64,000 nt of DNA from an uncultured Saprospiraceae bacterium (GTDB lineage Bacteria > Bacteroidota > Bacteroidia > Chitinophagales > Saprospiraceae): the NCBI GenBank assembly GCA_937929945.1, contig CALFUK010000048.1, forward strand, positions 1-64,000, written 5' to 3'. The translations under genes and the position numbers were made by a program. Below are positions 734 to 12,890 of the stretch, one piece after another (positions within the stretch are counted from its first letter, which is position 1; every line of letters starts with the position of its first letter). The notes below the pieces were generated by a model, which was given only the letters and a program-made list of their open reading frames with translations, was not told where the DNA came from and ran no database searches.

Positions 734-1987
734 ATGAGCTTATTTTATAGATTAAGTGCCTTACTATTATTCTGTTCAGCCACAACTTTCAGCACCCAAT
801 TATCAGCACAGGTCTTCGACCCCACCACAGGTTGTGTCATTGATGTCAATGGTGACTGTATCCCTAATACCTTACTGACTGCAGTACCGTTCCTAAAAAT
901 TGCTCCAGATGCCAGATCAGGTGCCATGGGTGATGCTGGCCTCGCCACCTCCGCTGATGCTAACTCAATGCATTTTAACGCATCTAAATTAGCTTTTGCT
1001 GATCAGGATTTTTCTTTATCTGCGACCTATACTCCTTGGCTAAGAGAGTTAGGCCTGACGGATGTATACCTAGCCTATTTATCTGGTTATAAGAAGCTCA
1101 GCGAATTCGAAGCCGTAGGTGTCAGTCTTAAGTTTTTCTCTTTGGGAGACATACAGTTCAGAGATATCAATGGCAATCCGACAGGAAATGGTCGTCCACG
1201 AGAATTTGAGCTCGCAGCTGGCTACACCAGAAAGCTGACAGACAATTTCTCTGCTGCACTATCAGCTAAGTACATCTACTCTAATCTAGCATCCGGGCAG
1301 GCAGTACAGGGTATCGATATCACTACAGCCAATGCTTTCGCTGCGGATATCTCTCTGACCTACCAAAGAGAACTTAATAACGACAATGAATTCACCTTCG
1401 GTGCAGCCTTGTCTAATCTTGGCTCTAAGATTTCATATACGAATAGCGCGGATGTGAAGGACTTCCTACCCGGAAATATTGGAATTGGAGGTGCGTATAA
1501 AATGAATTTTGATGAGTACAATAGTTTGACTGTAACCTTAGACATCAATAAGCTGCTGGTACCGACACCCGTCCCGTTCAGACTTATCGAAGAAGATGAT
1601 GCTGGAAATCGGACAGAAATAGCAAATCCAAGATTTGACACCGATGGAAATGGCATAGGTGACTACCGTGAAAAAGCACTATTCTCAGGTATCTTAGGTT
1701 CATTCACTGATGCTGAGGGTGGTCTGGGTGAAGAGCTGAAAGAGCTGACTATGTCTTTCGGTGTAGAGTACTGGTACAATGATCAGTTCGCCGTCAGGAC
1801 CGGCTACTACTTTGAAAATCAATTAAAGGGAGATCGACAATACTTGACACTTGGTCTTGGTTTAAAATATAATGTCGCATCAATCAATCTGTCCTACCTG
1901 ATCCCGACGACAAGCAGAAGAAGCCCGCTAGATAACACGATTCGATTCTCCTTTATCTTCGACTCATCTGTATTTCAGACAAGATAA
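734..1987 (+). CDS. porV: T9SS outer-membrane protein PorV (LptO)
   Basis: This 417-residue protein has an N-terminal signal peptide (about residues 1-25, ending near 'LSAQ') and then the family hallmark 'FLKIAPDARSGAMGDAG', which is typical of PorV. The rest alternates short beta strands and turns, as expected for a FadL-like 14-strand outer-membrane barrel, and it ends in a strand with an aromatic residue near the C-terminus ('FIFDSSVFQTR'). PorV carries T9SS cargo from the translocon to the PorU sortase. It lies 52 bp after porU and is probably cotranscribed. A TATCTTTA box at 702-709 resembles the Bacteroidota -7 element but lacks a clear -33 partner. The gene converges on icmF with only 26 bp between them. 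Confidence 0.93.
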   Translation: MSLFYRLSALLLFCSATTFSTQLSAQVFDPTTGCVIDVNGDCIPNTLLTAVPFLKIAPDARSGAMGDAGLATSADANSMHFNASKLAFADQDFSLSATYTPWLRELGLTDVYLAYLSGYKKLSEFEAVGVSLKFFSLGDIQFRDINGNPTGNGRPREFELAAGYTRKLTDNFSAALSAKYIYSNLASGQAVQGIDITTANAFAADISLTYQRELNNDNEFTFGAALSNLGSKISYTNSADVKDFLPGNIGIGGAYKMNFDEYNSLTVTLDINKLLVPTPVPFRLIEEDDAGNRTEIANPRFDTDGNGIGDYREKALFSGILGSFTDAEGGLGEELKELTMSFGVEYWYNDQFAVRTGYYFENQLKGDRQYLTLGLGLKYNVASINLSYLIPTTSRRSPLDNTIRFSFIFDSSVFQTR

Positions 1988-2013
1988 CCCAGCAACAATA
2001 GTATAATACGCGC

Positions 2014-5000
2014 CTACATATTCCTGCGGTACTGCCCACCTACGCTAAATAAAGCATGGGTGATCTGACCAAGAGTACAATATTTAGTCGTCTCCATTAA
2101 CTGGGTAAATACATTTTCTTGCTGTAGAGCAGCCTGCTTGAGTAGTTTTAATTGATGAACTGCGATAGACCCATGCAGCTCATGCAGCTCCTTTAGGTTC
2201 TTAATCTGGATCTCTTTTTCCTCCTCACTTGATCTGATGACTTCTTCAGGTATGACCGTCGGAGACCCCTTAGATGACAAGAAGGTGTTCACACCGATGA
2301 TGGGATACTCCCCCGTGTGCTTCAGCATCTCGTAGTGCATGCTCTCTTCTTGAATCTTACCTCGCTGGTACATGGTCTCCATCGCTCCCAGGACACCACC
2401 CCGCTCAGATATCTTATCAAATTCGGCCATTACGGCTTCCTCTACCAGATCTGTCAGCTCCTCGATGATGAAGCTACCTTGCAGCGGATTTTCGTTTCTA
2501 GCTAAGCCTAACTCATGATTGATGATCATCTGGATAGCGACTGCTCTGCGCACACTATCCTCCGTAGGAGTCGTGATGGCTTCATCATACGCATTCGTAT
2601 GTAGCGAATTACAATTATCGTAGATAGCGTACAGAGCCTGGAGCGTCGTCCTGATATCATTAAAATCGATCTCCTGTGCGTGGAGTGACCTTCCCGAAGT
2701 CTGTATGTGGTATTTCAGCTTTTGTGCTCTTTCGTTAGCACCGTACTGGTATTTCAGTGCCTTGGCCCAGATTCTCCGCGCTACCCTTCCGATGACCGCA
2801 TATTCTGGGTCTACTCCATTAGAAAAGAAGAAAGACAGATTGGGCGCGAAGTCATTGATATCCATGCCTCTGGATAGATAGTACTCGATAAAGGTGAAGC
2901 CATTAGACAAAGTGAAGGCCAGCTGCGAGATCGGATTGGCCCCAGCCTCGGCAATGTGATATCCAGAAATAGATACTGAATAAAAATTCTTCACCCGATG
3001 ATCAATGAAATACTGCTGCACATCGCCCATCAGCTGTAGAGAAAACTCAGTCGAGAATATACAGGTATTCTGTGCCTGATCCTCTTTGAGAATATCCGCC
3101 TGTACTGTACCTCTGACAGCTGCCAGCGCTTTGGCCTTAAGTTCTTCGTAGACAGCAGCATCCAGCACCTGATCACCGGTGAGCCCGAGTAAGAGCAAGC
3201 CAAGTCCTTCATTCCCATCTGGAAGAGAGCCCTCATATCTTGGTCTTATCAGCCCTTGATCATCGTATACTTCTTTTAGCTTTTGCTCTACTCTCGATTC
3301 TAATCCCTGCTCCTTGATATACAGCTCACACTGTTGATCTATGGCCGCATTCATATAGTAAGCACAGATGATCGCTGCTGGACCGTTGATCGTCATAGAC
3401 ACGGAGGTGCTTGGATGGCACAGATCAAAACCTGAATAAAGCTTCTTGGCATCATTGAGCGAGCTGATATTCACCCCTGAGTTACCCACCTTGCCATAGA
3501 TATCAGGCCGATGATCAGGATCAAAGCCGTATAAGGTGACTGAGTCAAAGGCAGTGGAGAGCCGCTTAGCAGGCATGTCCTGAGAGAGATAGTGAAAGCG
3601 CTTGTTTGTCCTCTCGGGTCCACCTTCACCAGCGAACATTCTGGTCGGATCTTCTCCTTTCCTCTTAAAAGGAAAAACACCCGCTGTGAAGGGAAATTCT
3701 CCTGGTACATTCTCCTGTGCGCACCACTCCAGTATCTCGCCCCAGTCTCGGTATCGTGGCAGTGCCACTTTAGGTATCTTGGACTGTGACAGAGAGGTGG
3801 TATAATTCTCTACTTTGATGTCCTTATTCCTGACCTGATAGGTAAAATACTCTTCTTGATAGGCAGCTTTCTTAGTTTCCCAGTTGTCGAGAGTATCAAT
3901 GCTTTCTTTACTAAGCTGCTGGCGGAGTTCGCCTTGAAGCTTCTTTAGTTCTTCCTGCGTAGTAGGCTCAGCGGTGATCTCCATCACATTATGAATGCTG
4001 TACAGCTGGCTAGCGATATTCGCCTGTGCTAGCTGTGACTTATTGTAGGCCCTGATACGATCGGTGATCTCTGAGAGGTATCTCACTCGAGCAGGCGGTA
4101 TGATGTACTGCTTCTCGCTCAATGCTGAATCGATATCAGAACTGACATCATTCAAAGATGGGAAAAGCTCTTTCATCAGGCGATTAAAAACCACATTCAC
4201 ACCTGGATCATTGAACTGTGAGGCGATGGTGCCAAAGACTGGCATCTCCTTCAGCTCAGTCTCCCACAGATCATTATTTCGCTGGTATTGCTTCTGCACA
4301 GCTTTTTGAGCATCCTGCGAACCTCTCTTGTCAAACTTATTGATGACGATTAGATCAGCAAAGTCTATCATATCAATCTTCTCCAGCTGTGAAGCTGCTC
4401 CAAACTCTGGTGTCATGACGTATACCGAGTAGTCTGCGTGATCCACTATCTCACTGTCAGACTGCCCTATTCCTGAGGTTTCGAGTATGATCAAATCAAA
4501 GCCAGCGTGCTTCAGTATGGTGATGGCATGATTGATATCTTTAGAAAGCGCAAGGTTATACTGGCGAGTGGCCAGCGAACGCATATACACGCGGTCATCC
4601 GAGATGGCATTCATCCTGATTCGATCGCCCAGCAGCGCACCGCCCGTCTTTCGCTTGGATGGGTCTACGGAGATGATCCCCAAGGTTTTTTCAGGATAGG
4701 CTGCTAGGTAGCGCAGGACTATCTCGTCGACCAGACTGCTCTTACCAGCTCCCCCTGTACCCGTGATGCCGAGTACTTTAATCTCGCTCTCAGCTGTATC
4801 TGATGAGAGCTTTGCTAACCAGGATTCACTCTCTTTTGGGTAATTCTCCGCTGCCGAAATAGTCCTGGCAATGCCGAAGTCATCTTTAGCTTTGACTTGA
4901 GCGAGCTGACCGTTAAGATGCTCACCTACTGGAAAATCGCTTTGACGGAGAAGATCATTGATCATACCCTGTAGCCCCATCGAGCGTCCATCGTCAGGTG

Positions 5001-5367
5001 AATAGATGCGAGTGATGCCATACTCGTGCAGCTCATTTATCTCCTGAGGTAGGATGGTACCACCGCCACCACCAAAAATCTTGATGTGTCCTGCACCTTT
5101 CTCTTGAAGTAGGTCGTAAGCATATTTAAAAAATTCATTGTGCCCCCCTTGGTAAGAAGTGATGGCTATCGCCTGCACATCCTCCTGTATAGCAGCAGTG
5201 ACTATCTCCAGCACTGACCTATTATGCCCCAGATGGATGACCTCAGCTCCACTGCGCTGGATGATTCTACGCATGATATTTATAGCAACATCATGACCAT
5301 CAAAAAGGGATCCCGCTGTCAGTACTCTTATTTTATATTTGGACTTGTATGTTTCAGTGCTTTGCAT
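2014..5367 (-). CDS. icmF: Fused isobutyryl-CoA mutase (IcmF): B12 domain, G-protein chaperone and mutase
   Basis: One polypeptide joins three parts. The first is an N-terminal B12-binding Rossmann domain (about residues 10-140) with the DGHD base-off ligand motif near residue 23. The second is a MeaB-like P-loop GTPase (about 180-430) with Walker A 'GTGGAGKSS' near residue 203 and an 'NKFDKRG' base-specificity motif. The third is a TIM-barrel acyl-CoA mutase (about 540-1117). This is the IcmF architecture, which interconverts isobutyryl-CoA and n-butyryl-CoA, or isovaleryl-CoA and pivalyl-CoA, with adenosylcobalamin. The segment '[19 protein letters not shown]' and the 'AQNTCIF' segment (Gln where methylmalonyl-CoA mutases carry Arg) favour a non-carboxylated substrate. 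I chose the Met at 5367 ('MQSTETYK') because the 14 residues from the upstream ATG at 5409 look non-coding. A BtuF-like gene and a DUF5522 gene lie just upstream on the same strand. Confidence 0.93.
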
Positions 5368-5450
5368 AGATAAAGATTTGATGCGCTTTGAAATTACAAT
5401 AATAATCACCTTGAGTCTATCCCGATGTCATTTTATTGACCACCAACAAT

Positions 5451-6763
<1,313 letters not shown>

Positions 6764-6781
6764 GCCAACCAACATGTTGGC
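6764..6781. promoter_or_regulatory. Palindrome over the -33 element (operator-like)
   Basis: GCCAACCAACATGTTGGC forms outer arms GCCAAC/GTTGGC and contains the perfect 12-bp palindrome CCAACATGTTGG at 6769-6780. The TGTTG that fits the -33 position lies inside it, so a bound regulator would block or reposition polymerase. The binding protein is unknown. Confidence 0.5.
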
Positions 6782-6807
6782 GAGCCAGATATTCAGACCT
6801 AACTTTG
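6775..6807 (+). promoter_or_regulatory. Bacteroidota-type promoter for the first secreted paralogue
   Basis: TGTTG (6775-6779), 20 bp, then TAACTTTG (6800-6807) fits the -33/-7 consensus TTG-N19-21-TAnnTTTG. The start codon is 32 bp after the -7 box. A TTAATAT box lies exactly 56 bp upstream of the -7 TA, the same offset as at the second paralogue. Confidence 0.7.
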
Positions 6808-6839
6808 ATCCAGAATTTATTTATTCACTTAAACATTTT

Positions 6840-7418
6840 ATGATGAAGTATACGTTATTGTTAATTGCAATTTGCTGCTCTGCACTTACACTATCTGCAT
6901 CAGATAGTAAGCCAGATCACACCACTGTCACTGGAAAAACAATTACAATTGGTTTTAACCAATCAATAAATTCGCCCGTCGAAGTTGTCCTGATAGACGC
7001 TTCGGGCTATCAGCTTCTGCGAGAATCACTACAGATTCAGCATGTAGATAAGAGAAAGTACAATCTCAAAAACCTACCTGCCGGAAAGTACTACCTGAAA
7101 GTACACCAGGGCTACAGGATGACCTCACGAACTATAATAGTCAAAAATAATTCTGCTATAATTACCAAAGAAAAGGTCATATTCAAACCTGCCTGTTCTC
7201 AAAAAGATGATCACTGGAATGTCAACCTCCTGCTTCTGAACAAAGACGCTGAGATGCATCTTTATGACGCCAAGTCCGATTTAGTTTATGCCGAGAGCTA
7301 TACCGATCAGAAAAAAGTTGCCAAAAGCTTTAATCTATCCAAGCTAAAGCCAGGAGCATACCGAGCCGTATTCAACATAGATGGTGATGTATTTAGTGAG
7401 ACCATCAAATTGGACTAG
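6840..7418 (+). CDS. Small secreted two-domain beta protein, paralogue 1
   Basis: A 192-residue protein with an N-terminal signal peptide (MMKYTLLLIAICCSALTLSAS). The start at 6840 (ATGATG) is preferred to the upstream frame opening at 6702 because it puts the signal peptide at the N-terminus and matches the ATGATG start of the neighbouring paralogue. The mature part has two similar beta-sandwich-like units. Each has a 'V.(V/L).DA.....' strand, a 'YNLKNLPAGKYYLKV' or 'FNLSKLKPGAYRAVF' strand and a closing strand, so each resembles a T9SS type A sorting-domain fold. It is not a normal cargo protein because almost nothing precedes these units. The function is unknown. It is 1,059 bp upstream of a close paralogue and is transcribed alone, with its own promoter and terminator. 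Confidence 0.8.
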   Translation: MMKYTLLLIAICCSALTLSASDSKPDHTTVTGKTITIGFNQSINSPVEVVLIDASGYQLLRESLQIQHVDKRKYNLKNLPAGKYYLKVHQGYRMTSRTIIVKNNSAIITKEKVIFKPACSQKDDHWNVNLLLLNKDAEMHLYDAKSDLVYAESYTDQKKVAKSFNLSKLKPGAYRAVFNIDGDVFSETIKLD

Positions 7419-7449
7419 CTAATAAAAATACCTCACCCAAGCAAATGTC

Positions 7450-7482
7450 AAGGCGCTCCGATTTTCTCTGAGCGCCTTTTTT
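7450..7482 (+). terminator. Rho-independent terminator after paralogue 1
   Basis: AAGGCGCTC (7450-7458) pairs perfectly with GAGCGCCTT (7470-7478) across an 11-nt loop and is followed by T residues to 7482. It ends the paralogue 1 transcript. Confidence 0.9.
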
Positions 7483-7763
7483 CATAAACAAAACTATCTA
7501 ATACGGCAAAACCAATAACAGTAAACCACCCTTCTGTCACAAATCGTAAGAATCAGAGTTTAATTATGGAGAATTATAAGATCTCAGCACATCTATTCCA
7601 TTAAGCTTATCACCTTCCATAACCACACCTCAGGCGGGTACATTCTAAACCAACTTGAAGTTCTGAAGTCTTCGACAGGACAATCCACACTCGTTTTAAT
7701 TCTGCACAAGACCATATACACCCTATAAAACAAATTATATTTTGTGTGAAACATAAAATAGGG
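7483..7763. other. Intergenic region between the paralogues, upstream part
   Basis: No credible coding frame or RNA is visible here. A weak TATATTTTG at 7737-7744 resembles a -7 box with wrong spacing. The regulatory elements of paralogue 2 start just to the right. Confidence 0.4.
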
Positions 7764-7830
7764 CCTATATTAACCATTAATGTGTCAATAATTTACATAA
7801 AGGTTAATATAGGACACATAATGGTTAACC
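7764..7830. repeat. Interleaved inverted repeats upstream of paralogue 2
   Basis: Two inverted repeats interlock. CCTATATTAACC (7764-7775) is the exact reverse complement of GGTTAATATAGG (7802-7813). TTAACCATTAATGTGTC (7770-7786) matches the reverse complement of GACACATAATGGTTAA (7813-7828) except for one extra base. The order A-B-A'-B' allows alternative hairpins or an H-type pseudoknot if transcribed, or paired operator sites if read as DNA. The palindrome GGTTAACC lies at 7823-7830. The whole element is upstream of the predicted -33 box. Confidence 0.6.
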
Positions 7831-7834
7831 GTAA

Positions 7835-7867
7835 TGTGGACTGAAGCCTTAAGGCAACATAGCTTTG
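7835..7867 (+). promoter_or_regulatory. Bacteroidota-type promoter for paralogue 2
   Basis: TAGCTTTG at 7860-7867 is an exact TAnnTTTG -7 box. TGTGG (7835-7839) is in the -33 position but is a poor match, which suggests dependence on an activator or on the repeats just upstream. The sequence AATTTATT follows the -7 box here and at paralogue 1. Confidence 0.65.
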
Positions 7868-7898
7868 CATTGAATTTATTACCCAATTAAAATATCAA

Positions 7899-8480
7899 AT
7901 GATGAAAAACACATTATTACTCATAAGCACGTTAATTCTTGCAATCGGAAGTCTTTTCGCTTCAGAAATGAAACCTAACGTCACGACTACAACAGATAAG
8001 ACAATCACGGTCAACTTTGATCAAACCACTAATGCACCTGTAGATGTCATACTTAAAGACGCAGCGGGATTTCGCCTATTGGAAGAATCTCTTAACTCAC
8101 AAGATGCTCAAAGAAGAAAGTACAACCTTAAGAATCTTCCTGCTGGCAATTACACCTTAGAAATCCATGAAGATTTCAGAATCACGACAGAGTCAATCTC
8201 AATCGACAATAACACGATCGAAGTCACAAATGAAGAAGTGACATTCAAGCCTGTCTGCTCTCAGACTCAGGATCACTGGAACATCAACCTTCTTTTATTA
8301 AAGAAGGATGCTGACATTACGATATACAATGCAGATGATAAGCCTGTATACACAGCTAAATTCAGAGGCGAACAAAATATTTCAAAAAGCTACGATATCT
8401 CAAATCTGGAAATTGGTAACTACAAAGCTGTCATCCAAGTCGATGGTAAGTCATTTAGTGAGCCTGTATTCGTCAGATAA
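7899..8480 (+). CDS. Small secreted two-domain beta protein, paralogue 2
   Basis: A 193-residue protein beginning MMKNTLLLISTLILAIGSLFAS, a clear signal peptide. It matches paralogue 1 along its whole length, with shared 'RRKYNLKNLPAGNY' (about residues 68-81), 'V.FKPVCSQTQDHWNINLLLLKKDA' (about 118-142) and a C-terminal 'GKSFSEPV' strand. One Cys in the CSQ segment of the mature protein is conserved in both copies. As in paralogue 1, two sorting-domain-like beta units make up the whole mature protein. It is probably exported to the periplasm or surface; its function is unknown. It is monocistronic and ends at a strong terminator shared with rnpB on the other strand. Confidence 0.8.
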   Translation: MMKNTLLLISTLILAIGSLFASEMKPNVTTTTDKTITVNFDQTTNAPVDVILKDAAGFRLLEESLNSQDAQRRKYNLKNLPAGNYTLEIHEDFRITTESISIDNNTIEVTNEEVTFKPVCSQTQDHWNINLLLLKKDADITIYNADDKPVYTAKFRGEQNISKSYDISNLEIGNYKAVIQVDGKSFSEPVFVR

Positions 8481-8514
8481 TTGACTCGATAGGCAGTCTG
8501 CCTCAACCAAAAAC

Positions 8515-8556
8515 ACACAAAAAAGGTGATCTCGATATGAGGTCACCTTTTTTTTA
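8515..8556. terminator. Bidirectional terminator between paralogue 2 and rnpB
   Basis: A stem GGTGATCTC/GAGGTCACC (one G-T wobble) with loop GATAT is flanked by an A-run on the left and a T-run on the right. It can therefore end the plus-strand paralogue 2 transcript and the minus-strand rnpB transcript. Confidence 0.9.
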
Positions 8557-8565
8557 TGTGATAAA

Positions 8566-8946
8566 ATGTATTCGCGTAAGCCGGATTCTGTTATTCGCCC
8601 GAAGGCAAATCTCTATCATTTATCTGGCCTCAGCTTCGCAGCTGAGATCTAGCTGCCTACCCCTTTAGATAGAATCCGAAGATTCTGCGACCGAGCAAGT
8701 CTTACTCTAAATATACGTGGCATTTCAGTCCATGAGGTTTATCCCAATCGACAGTTACCTGCCTATTGCGTGAGCTCTTACCTCACGTTTTCACCCTTAT
8801 CACACCAAAGGCGTGACGGTCTAGCTTTCTGTGATACTTTCTGTATGACGCCAAGGCGTCACCCCATCCGTTAGATGGCATGGTGCTCTACACTGTCCGG
8901 ACTTTCCTCCCCGACCATAGGTCAGAGCGATAGAGTCTGAATACGA
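8566..8946 (-). ncRNA. rnpB: RNase P RNA (bacterial type A-like)
   Basis: The minus strand carries the conserved 5' block GAGGAAAGTCCGGAC (reverse complement at about 8894-8908) and the conserved 3' block ACAGAATCCGGCTTACG (about 8575-8591). GTATTC at 8944-8939 pairs with GAATAC at 8573-8568 and gives helix P1, which fixes the ends to within a few bases and a length near 380 nt. The RNA is the catalytic subunit that matures tRNA 5' ends. It is transcribed divergently from the histidine kinase gene and ends in the shared terminator at 8515-8556. Confidence 0.93.
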
Positions 8947-9018
8947 TGTAAATCTACAAAGGATTATTCAATGCCATAATATCATTCATATTATACATAT
9001 TTTTAATATGTAAATGAT

Positions 9019-12305: not shown

Positions 12306-12890
12306 ATGCACGATATAGAGCCATATCATAAATGGAGAGAACATTATACCTCATCAGAAGACGAGAGATCTCCCTTCTATGGTCGGATCTATGATGAGTT
12401 TAAATTTACGAATAAGGTATATAATTACTTTATCCATCCGCAGTGGGATGAATTTGGCTCACCTACGCTCTATGCAAAGATTATCTACGCAGACTATCAC
12501 AAAGGCGTGGCCTGTATAGAGCTGATCGGAGAGTGGAATGACTGCATCTCTAACGATATCATGTTTCTCAAAAGAGAAATCATCGACGATATGATGAATC
12601 ATGATGTACACAAATATGTGGTGCTGTGTGACAATGTTCTGAATTTTCATAGCTCTGATGACAGCTACTATGAAGAGTGGTATGATGATGTGAAGGATGA
12701 GAATGGATGGATCGTCTTTCTGAACACCTTGGAGCATGTCATGGCTGAGATGGAATCAGTCAGACTACAGCACTACGTGAATTTTGGCCCACAGTATAAT
12801 GGCATCAACTGGAGAAAACTCAAACCATCAGTCATCGCAGACTACATCGAGGATATACAGTCCAACGAAATAAAGCAACTCTCTTATTAA
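12306..12890 (+). CDS. Conserved-type hypothetical protein upstream of era
   Basis: A 194-residue acidic, aromatic-rich soluble protein with no signal peptide or transmembrane segment. I do not recognise a named family. The core (about 58-150) alternates strands and helices: 'KGVACIELIGEW', 'FLKREIIDDMM', 'HKYVVLCDNVLNF', 'GWIVFLNTLEHVMAEME'. This pattern is loosely like a STAS or anti-anti-sigma fold, but that is only an impression. It is the first gene of an operon with era (11 bp gap) and der, and a promoter lies directly upstream. A role linked to ribosome assembly or stress is possible from position only. Confidence 0.8.
   Translation: MHDIEPYHKWREHYTSSEDERSPFYGRIYDEFKFTNKVYNYFIHPQWDEFGSPTLYAKIIYADYHKGVACIELIGEWNDCISNDIMFLKREIIDDMMNHDVHKYVVLCDNVLNFHSSDDSYYEEWYDDVKDENGWIVFLNTLEHVMAEMESVRLQHYVNFGPQYNGINWRKLKPSVIADYIEDIQSNEIKQLSY

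Follow-up and report, generated by a model that had tools for sequence, protein, structure and literature searches.

Bacteroidota promoters are unlike the textbook type, and we know of few activator sites of defined geometry within them. Among the closest described systems, araBAD and rhaBAD are regulons of the AraC/XylS family, and most AraC proteins with direct half-sites next to a promoter are activators. For novel AraC-family rhamnose regulators, those of Bacteroides included, a 21-bp direct repeat has been reported as the form of the site (PMC3870299), and a study of Flavobacterium psychrophilum places the TA of the sigma-A box at -12 (PMC9723704). Here we describe a promoter element shared by two tandem genes, W1 and W2, in a 64,000-nucleotide stretch of DNA (the window; contig CALFUK010000048.1 of assembly GCA_937929945.1, positions 1 to 64,000) from an uncultured Saprospiraceae bacterium. 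We think it likely (probability about 0.75) that an AraC-type activator would read this element and drive W1, W2 and the rest of a regulon.

The proposed system resembles AraC/XylS regulons, such as that of Bacteroides RhaR (PMC3870299), in the type of regulator and in its direct half-sites 21 bp apart, as well as in a proximal site next to the promoter and a target that often lies beside the regulator gene. It differs from them in that the main target is small exported beta-sandwich proteins and not a catabolic operon, that RNA-like units are among the targets, that the spacing to the Bacteroidota TAnnTTTG box is fixed at 56/57 bp, and that the regulator gene is not linked to W1 and W2. Taken singly, the type of regulator, the spacing of the half-sites and the fold of the proteins are familiar. 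A literature search covering titles and abstract openings, with few subscription papers, found no report of this regulon, nor of the combination, its fixed geometry or its RNA-like outputs.

W1 (6840..7418, plus strand, 192 residues) and W2 (7899..8480, plus strand, 193 residues) are secreted two-domain paralogues, identical at 85 of 173 aligned residues (49%). Both start with ATGATG, at 6840 and 7899, 1,059 bp apart. Each is preceded on the plus strand by a -7 box of the form TAnnTTTG (TAACTTTG at 6800..6807 for W1, TAGCTTTG at 7860..7867 for W2) and by an upstream box (AGTTAATAT at 6742-6750 and GGTTAATAT at 7802-7810), whose TTAATAT, at 6744 and 7804, begins exactly 56 bp ahead of the TA of the -7 box in both cases. 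The sequence AATTTATT follows at 6814-6821 and 7873-7880, 14 and 13 bp past the TA. Every coordinate that a sequence-only reading of the window had given proved correct on direct reading. So did its claim of strong terminators behind both genes: hairpins with T runs lie at 7450..7482 on the plus strand for W1 (hairpin 7450-7478, -16.9 kcal/mol, z -4.8) and at 8519..8555, also on the plus strand, for W2 (hairpin 8519-8553, -19.9 kcal/mol, z -7.5), both missed by a generic terminator scan. Because the TA is set at -12, the transcription starts are predicted at about 6812 and 7872.

The sequence-only reading had proposed aligning the two upstream regions. Over the 100 bp ahead of each gene, compared without gaps, the identity was 38% (random 100-mers from the window average 25%, and only 0.4% of them reach 38%), low enough for the shared boxes to be conspicuous against the DNA around them. 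The pattern GTTAATAT-N44..54-TAnnTTTG has two matches in the 5.07-Mb host genome, W1 and W2 themselves, and the reversed control pattern has none, so the search suggested earlier for further copies with the 56-bp spacing recovered the pair and no other exact match. These counts, together with the shuffle tests below, rule out a chance match of the boxes. A search with W2 found no family copies in the host genome beyond W1 and W2. After W1, the closest match to W2 among 100 related genomes has just 34% identity to it, which suggests that the pair arose by duplication in the host lineage. The idea of a tandem duplication that includes the promoter is thus borne out in so far as the paralogues share the element, whereas the layout is older than the pair, being present in other genera.

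Family matches at an E-value of 1e-4 occur in 23 of the 100 related genomes, host included; the two other species of the host genus (G001 and G002) have none at this threshold. Twenty of the 25 matches from outside the window, drawn from 17 genomes, were kept as a homologue set, the five omitted being partial, interrupted by an internal stop or inside larger frames. These 20 form one family of ~185-210 residues; the family hidden Markov model was built without L045. With the window included, 12 of 22 upstream regions carry the upstream box at a match of at least 9/11 and, 56/57 bp further on, an exact TAnnTTTG, and 13 do so at a match of at least 8/11, to an 11-letter consensus drawn after inspection of the same 22 regions. 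In 500 dinucleotide shuffles, the stricter threshold was passed by 0.004 regions on average and never by more than 1, and the looser one by 0.08 on average. The sequence-only reading had named unrelated upstream regions in other genomes as the result that would speak against it. Outside the window, in other genera, the exact layout was found in 11 of the 20 homologues, a near match with the box present and the -7 box one letter off in three (L031, L038 and L043), and no acceptable pair of upstream and -7 boxes in six (L030, L032, L033, L041, L045 and L046).

In nine of the 20 loci, an AraC-like gene of ~290 codons adjoins the family gene (eight divergent, one tail-to-tail). A search with an alignment of this regulator yielded 571 confirmed candidate loci, of which the best 80 are referred to here as the named loci; they overlap with the homologue set, the family protein of L205 being the same as that of L033. 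In the DNA of the named loci, a fixed pattern found 69 pairs of box and TAnnTTTG less than 120 bp apart, 53 of them at 55-57 bp (45 at 56, six at 57 and two at 55). Seven further pairs lie at 35 bp, which is 56 - 21 and so corresponds to a second half-site. The same DNA reversed gave three scattered pairs, none of them at 55-57 bp.

An alignment of 78 sites, picked at an E-value of 1e-5 by a sequence-only model (R1) that was built from 16 sites, reads GG(T/G)TAA(A/T)ATAG(C/T)A ... GGnnAA ... GTAG ... TAnnTTTG. The second half-site gives a peak at +21 bp in 16 elements (6.62/9, compared with 1.9-4.9 at other offsets), and the 21-bp direct repeat is also seen in the column profile of the 78 sites. 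In W2, the distal half-site (GGTTAATATAG, 7802..7812, plus strand) matches the consensus at 11/11 positions, and the proximal half-site (GGTTAACCG, 7823..7831, plus strand) lies 21 bp 3' of it. In W1, the distal half-site (AGTTAATATTA, 6742..6752, plus strand) matches at 8/11, and the position of the proximal one is occupied by TGCCAACCA (6763..6771, plus strand). With the TA set at -12, the half-sites would span roughly -70 to -58 and -49 to -33. W2 has in addition an inverted half-site on the minus strand (CCTATATTAACC as on the plus strand, 7764..7775), a perfect inverted 12-mer of 7802-7813 with a 26-bp gap to the distal half-site. Five of the 16 elements show this gap. Inverted half-sites at a match of at least 9/11 occur in seven of the 16, a modest excess over shuffles (mean 2.54, maximum 7), and there is no excess at 8/11 (12 compared with 10.2). 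The 78-site alignment contains no conserved -33 TTG, as expected for an activator-dependent promoter.

R1 was run on 60 genomes. Three R1 sites stand above noise in the host genome (G000), with E-values of 3.4e-12, 9.8e-8 and 9.4e-7, the next being 0.04. The first two are the elements of W2 (7797..7877, plus strand, 48.6 bits) and W1 (6737..6817, plus strand, 34.5 bits), scored over the whole genome and both members of the training set. The third lies directly before an AraC-type regulator gene on another contig (G000:C145:11569-12450, minus strand) and points away from it; in G001 and G002, the best R1 site has the same position and direction. All three regulator-side sites were outside the training set. 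The host regulator has 69% and 75% identity to its counterparts in G001 and G002. Its matches to the RhaS, MelR and AraC models fall in their DNA-binding part and stay under the cut-offs set for the whole protein, and it also matches solved AraC-type helix-turn-helix domains. Among six regulators of relatives that were scanned, HTH_18/HTH_AraC is above cut-off in all six and AraC_binding in four (L036, L030, L116 and L119); in L112 and L118 AraC_binding is not above cut-off, and Cupin_2 matches among the six are below it. Since the host regulator is not beside W1 and W2, it is linked to them by element identity only. A search of the genome contigs with the W1/W2 pair alone found no relative.

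Linkage is extensive in relatives, and carriers that can be cultivated include Zobellia amurskyensis, Formosa algae and Marivirga aurantiaca. In 63 of the 80 named loci, an R1 site (E-value of at most 0.01) stands before the regulator and points away from it; 69 have a family gene, and 54 have both family gene and element. In 12 there is also a site directed at the regulator, and 13 carry two or more family genes. A site lies within ~420 bp of 64 of the 95 family genes in the named loci; one of the 95 is doubtful. The element is kept with every tandem copy in L145 and L147 (2/2 each) and in L156 and L198 (3/3 each). A second model (R3), built from the 78 sites, was applied to 199 host-family genomes and gave a site at an E-value of 1e-4 in 66; the regulator was present at 1e-60 in 82. 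Both occur in 62 genomes, the regulator only in 20, the element only in four and neither in 113, so the element is found in 62 of 82 genomes with the regulator and in 4 of 117 without it (Fisher p 1e-28, uncorrected for relatedness). The sequence-only reading had spoken of a small family under one regulator, a view that these data support with reservations: in the host the protein family has two members only, the third host element lies before a regulator gene and a putative small RNA on another contig, and control by one regulator is a prediction from sequence.

For 74 of the 91 listed R3 sites, the DNA that follows was inspected and holds 48 family genes, four major facilitator superfamily (MFS) genes, two SemiSWEET genes, two regulators, 11 RNA-like units and seven other targets; the last group includes the host-genus RNA of G001 and G002 and, in G229:C17, a gene that on reading is secreted and family-like. 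R1 sites precede MFS genes in G003, G022 and G032, and in G020 a family gene missed by the protein search at an E-value of 1e-4. SemiSWEET genes follow the element in L156 (2231-2567) and, by similarity to the L156 protein, in L278 and L281. Of the 11 named loci without a family match, L149 has a short gene that reads as family-like and L205 a family gene hidden by the open reading frame filter. The place of the family gene is taken by an MFS-type gene in L182, L204 and L208, by a short RNA-like unit in L172 and L174, and in L142 and L162 by a conserved 37-codon frame just past the element (MRA-I---MPTEARK-SFFS-FKDSKRVRWAAYRT-NR); L154 and L183 showed no family, MFS, 37-codon or RNA-like unit. 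The element points into a regulator gene in G036 (R1), L187, G106 and G131. L187 contains two regulator-type genes (4516-5462 and 6001-6861), the first of which the element points straight into.

In the host, the regulator-side element is followed by a conserved putative small RNA, both lying before the regulator gene (G000:C145:12502-12737, equal to L076 6503-6738; the RNA itself at about 12577-12737): ~150-180 nucleotides without a recognised protein gene end in a core and a terminator. The 24-nucleotide core GTAGATATTTTTTCATGTGACTAA is identical in the three host-genus species (G000, G001 and G002). The host copy is more stably folded than 200 shuffled versions (z -4.6), Rfam gave it nothing above gathering score, and RNAalifold found no compensatory changes among the three sequences. 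Since the terminator detector gave a signal in 12 of 74 control windows as well, terminators were dropped as a sign of RNA genes, and the candidates rest on sequence conservation and not on the hairpin. In another genus, three (G207; L252, G207:C4:33062-33915) or two (G118; L253, G118:C61:16491-17108) tandem RNA-like units with their own elements precede the family gene, and they have a common core that differs from that of the host genus. A third core is common to G229 and G153 (one genus) and a fourth to G193 and G140 (two genera), whereas the single unit of G045 has no relative.

The surroundings of these RNAs vary. In G002 the RNA comes after the regulator and before GGGP-synthase-like and RsgA-like genes (named by eye); in G044 a secreted gene takes the place of the RNA, as it does in G021 with one further gene between. 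One hypothesis is that a secreted-protein mRNA, since lost, left its 3' end behind as the host-genus small RNA. No convincing relic of a secreted gene was found beside the regulator in G000, G001 or G002 (best E-value 0.30). The 3' end of the G021 gene shows a weak likeness to the RNA core (E-value 0.0021 among 15 chosen sources, but 0.033 in a whole-genome search, with seven matches outside the three host-genus loci scoring better), which may be chance.

SgrR of enteric bacteria is of a different regulator type from AraC-type proteins. The SgrR-SgrS-SgrT-SetA system (PMC4021124) shares with the present one a small RNA before the regulator (putative here), an RNA core before the terminator, a mini-open reading frame and an MFS gene, although here these parts lie in different loci and were not seen together in any one of them. 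It differs in regulator type and in its unrelated RNAs, and here the secreted family is the main output. No RNA target was found here: in a crude search of three genomes for near-complements of the host core with at most three mismatches, none of the six non-self matches fell at a gene start, and the numbers were near control. A widespread Bacteroidota stress circuit of the same kind, in which an AraC-type sensor of an accumulating sugar would drive RNAs, mini-proteins, transporters and exported proteins, strikes us as rather unlikely. In such a circuit the RNAs would lie at the regulator locus in the host genus, in the position that the secreted gene has in relatives, or in tandem arrays in another genus, and W1 and W2 would be two members of a repeatedly duplicated exported beta-sandwich family.

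In the mechanism that we favour, W1 and W2 would each form their own terminated unit with a sigma-A promoter that depends on the AraC-type protein of G000:C145:11569-12450, acting from elsewhere in the genome. A dimer of this activator would bind the two direct half-sites 21 bp apart, and the proximal half-site, which overlaps the -33 region, would help to recruit RNA polymerase; the upstream inverted half-site might serve autoregulation or cooperative binding. The ligand-bound regulator would thereby cause the exported proteins to be made together with the rest of the regulon, predicted to comprise the small RNA beside the regulator in the host genus and, in some relatives, MFS or SemiSWEET transporters or the regulator itself. 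Because of these transporter targets, a sugar or sugar derivative is most likely the ligand. If this is correct, it provides a regulator for DUF3244-like exported proteins, helps to explain why their genes are duplicated together with their promoters, and exposes candidate small RNAs, with the element, the -7 spacing, the likely reader and the target list all readable from sequence.

Several observations weigh against this mechanism. Binding and activation are predicted from sequence alone, and the sugar ligand from the transporters and from what is generally known of the AraC family. The host regulator is unlinked to W1 and W2, its own element reads CAnnTTTG in place of TAnnTTTG, and the proximal half-site of W1 is degenerate. 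The nine loci with an adjacent regulator show the exact layout in only four cases, a near match in three and none in two; in the latter (L030 and L033), the regulator adjoins the family gene and yet no box is recognisable. In seven multi-copy Flavobacterium loci, only two of the 24 copies reach an R1 E-value of 0.01, and others show weaker matches only. The genomes of the co-occurrence table are not phylogenetically independent, 20 of the 82 with the regulator lack the element at 1e-4, and in four the element occurs although no regulator matches at 1e-60. G021, G026, G044 and G053 have a family gene beside the regulator and yet no element at 1e-4; given that family gene, either R3 misses sites or the element has been lost there.

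The W1 and W2 proteins have a signal-peptide-like start (read by eye) followed by two beta units, without a cargo domain ahead of a tail in the domain scan and the W2 model and without any recognised catalytic domain, in agreement with the two-unit, effector-free architecture described earlier. Both exceed the cut-offs of Por_Secre_tail (PF18962; 39.5 bits for W1 and 36.4 for W2, cut-off 27) and TIGR04183 (30.0 and 26.8, cut-off 23); the best PF18962 stretch covers residues 33-101 and 34-97, and a second stretch also exists. For DUF3244 (PF11589, cut-off 25 bits), W2 scores 26.8 and W1 19.3. An AlphaFold2 model of W2 (predicted local distance difference test score 80.5), made from an alignment of only two sequences, has two all-beta domains. 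In VIA structure comparison, the DUF3244 structures 3d33 (Z 11.6, root-mean-square deviation (rmsd) 1.4, 81 residues, N-terminal unit), 3sd2 (Z 11.6, rmsd 4.5, 85 residues) and 4g5a (Z 9.8) rank above the RgpB tail 5ag8 (Z 9.0, rmsd 1.8 over 64 residues) and PorU 6za2 (Z 8.6), which stand among fibronectin-type and glycosidase domains. Foldseek ranked fibronectin-type domains of the Protein Data Bank first, with poor TM-scores, and an FN3/Ig-like shape in common says nothing on function. The proteins thus share their domain fold with the DUF3244 proteins, from which they differ in having two units and, for W1, in falling below the Pfam cut-off. The accessible text of those papers found that name DUF3244 ties no regulator or promoter to it.

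The sorting-domain-like character ascribed to the proteins is therefore borne out as a fold, whereas secretion by the type IX secretion system (T9SS) remains conjecture. That W1 and W2 are T9SS cargo reduced to its tails, a sorting domain without effector on the cell surface, is a tentative and, in our view, doubtful reading. The tail matches above cut-off, the fold match to the RgpB tail and the presence of PorV in the same window speak for it; unlike a T9SS type A sorting domain, however, the proteins have their best tail match in the N-terminal and not the C-terminal unit, the latter matching DUF3244, and DUF3244 structures score higher than the RgpB tail. Shorter, apparently single-unit versions of the family, which also exist, fit this reading poorly. 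Our guess is that they probably act in the envelope, as binding or protective components; of all parts of our proposal, a role there or at the surface is the least certain.

It is improbable that another conserved factor reads the element and that the regulator gene is just one more target. The four genomes with element and no regulator match, the unlinked position of W1 and W2 and the elements that point into some regulator genes would fit such a factor, but the 21-bp direct-repeat form suits AraC proteins (PMC3870299), and both linkage and co-occurrence with the regulator are strong. We give a similarly low chance to a repressor relieved by its ligand: a protein bound at a proximal half-site overlapping the -33 region could block the polymerase, but the aligned elements have no conserved -33 TTG and most AraC proteins with such sites are activators. 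That the boxes are mere leftovers of a recent promoter-inclusive duplication is very improbable, for although W1 and W2 are adjacent paralogues with much of their upstream DNA diverged, and although six of 20 homologues lack a recognisable box, the boxes and their spacing recur in other genera and the element also precedes unrelated genes. Activation by the AraC-type protein remains the reading that we prefer.

A weak element in the host genome (G000:C78:6864-6935, in L079; E-value 0.44, within noise) lies before a SusC-like gene (named by eye), beside which are a paralogous AraC-type regulator and, by eye, apparent sugar-acid genes. In the window, the RNase P RNA gene (8561-8947, minus strand) is convergent with W2, its 3' end lying just past the W2 terminator, and the PorV gene of the T9SS lies at 734-1987; two minus-strand genes as well as W1 and W2 sit between them (734-8947). 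In G002, a PorV-like gene (named by eye) directly precedes the RNase P RNA gene, and in G001 a short tandem repeat array open in several frames (L062 2892-3350) lies between a histidine kinase gene and the RNase P RNA gene.

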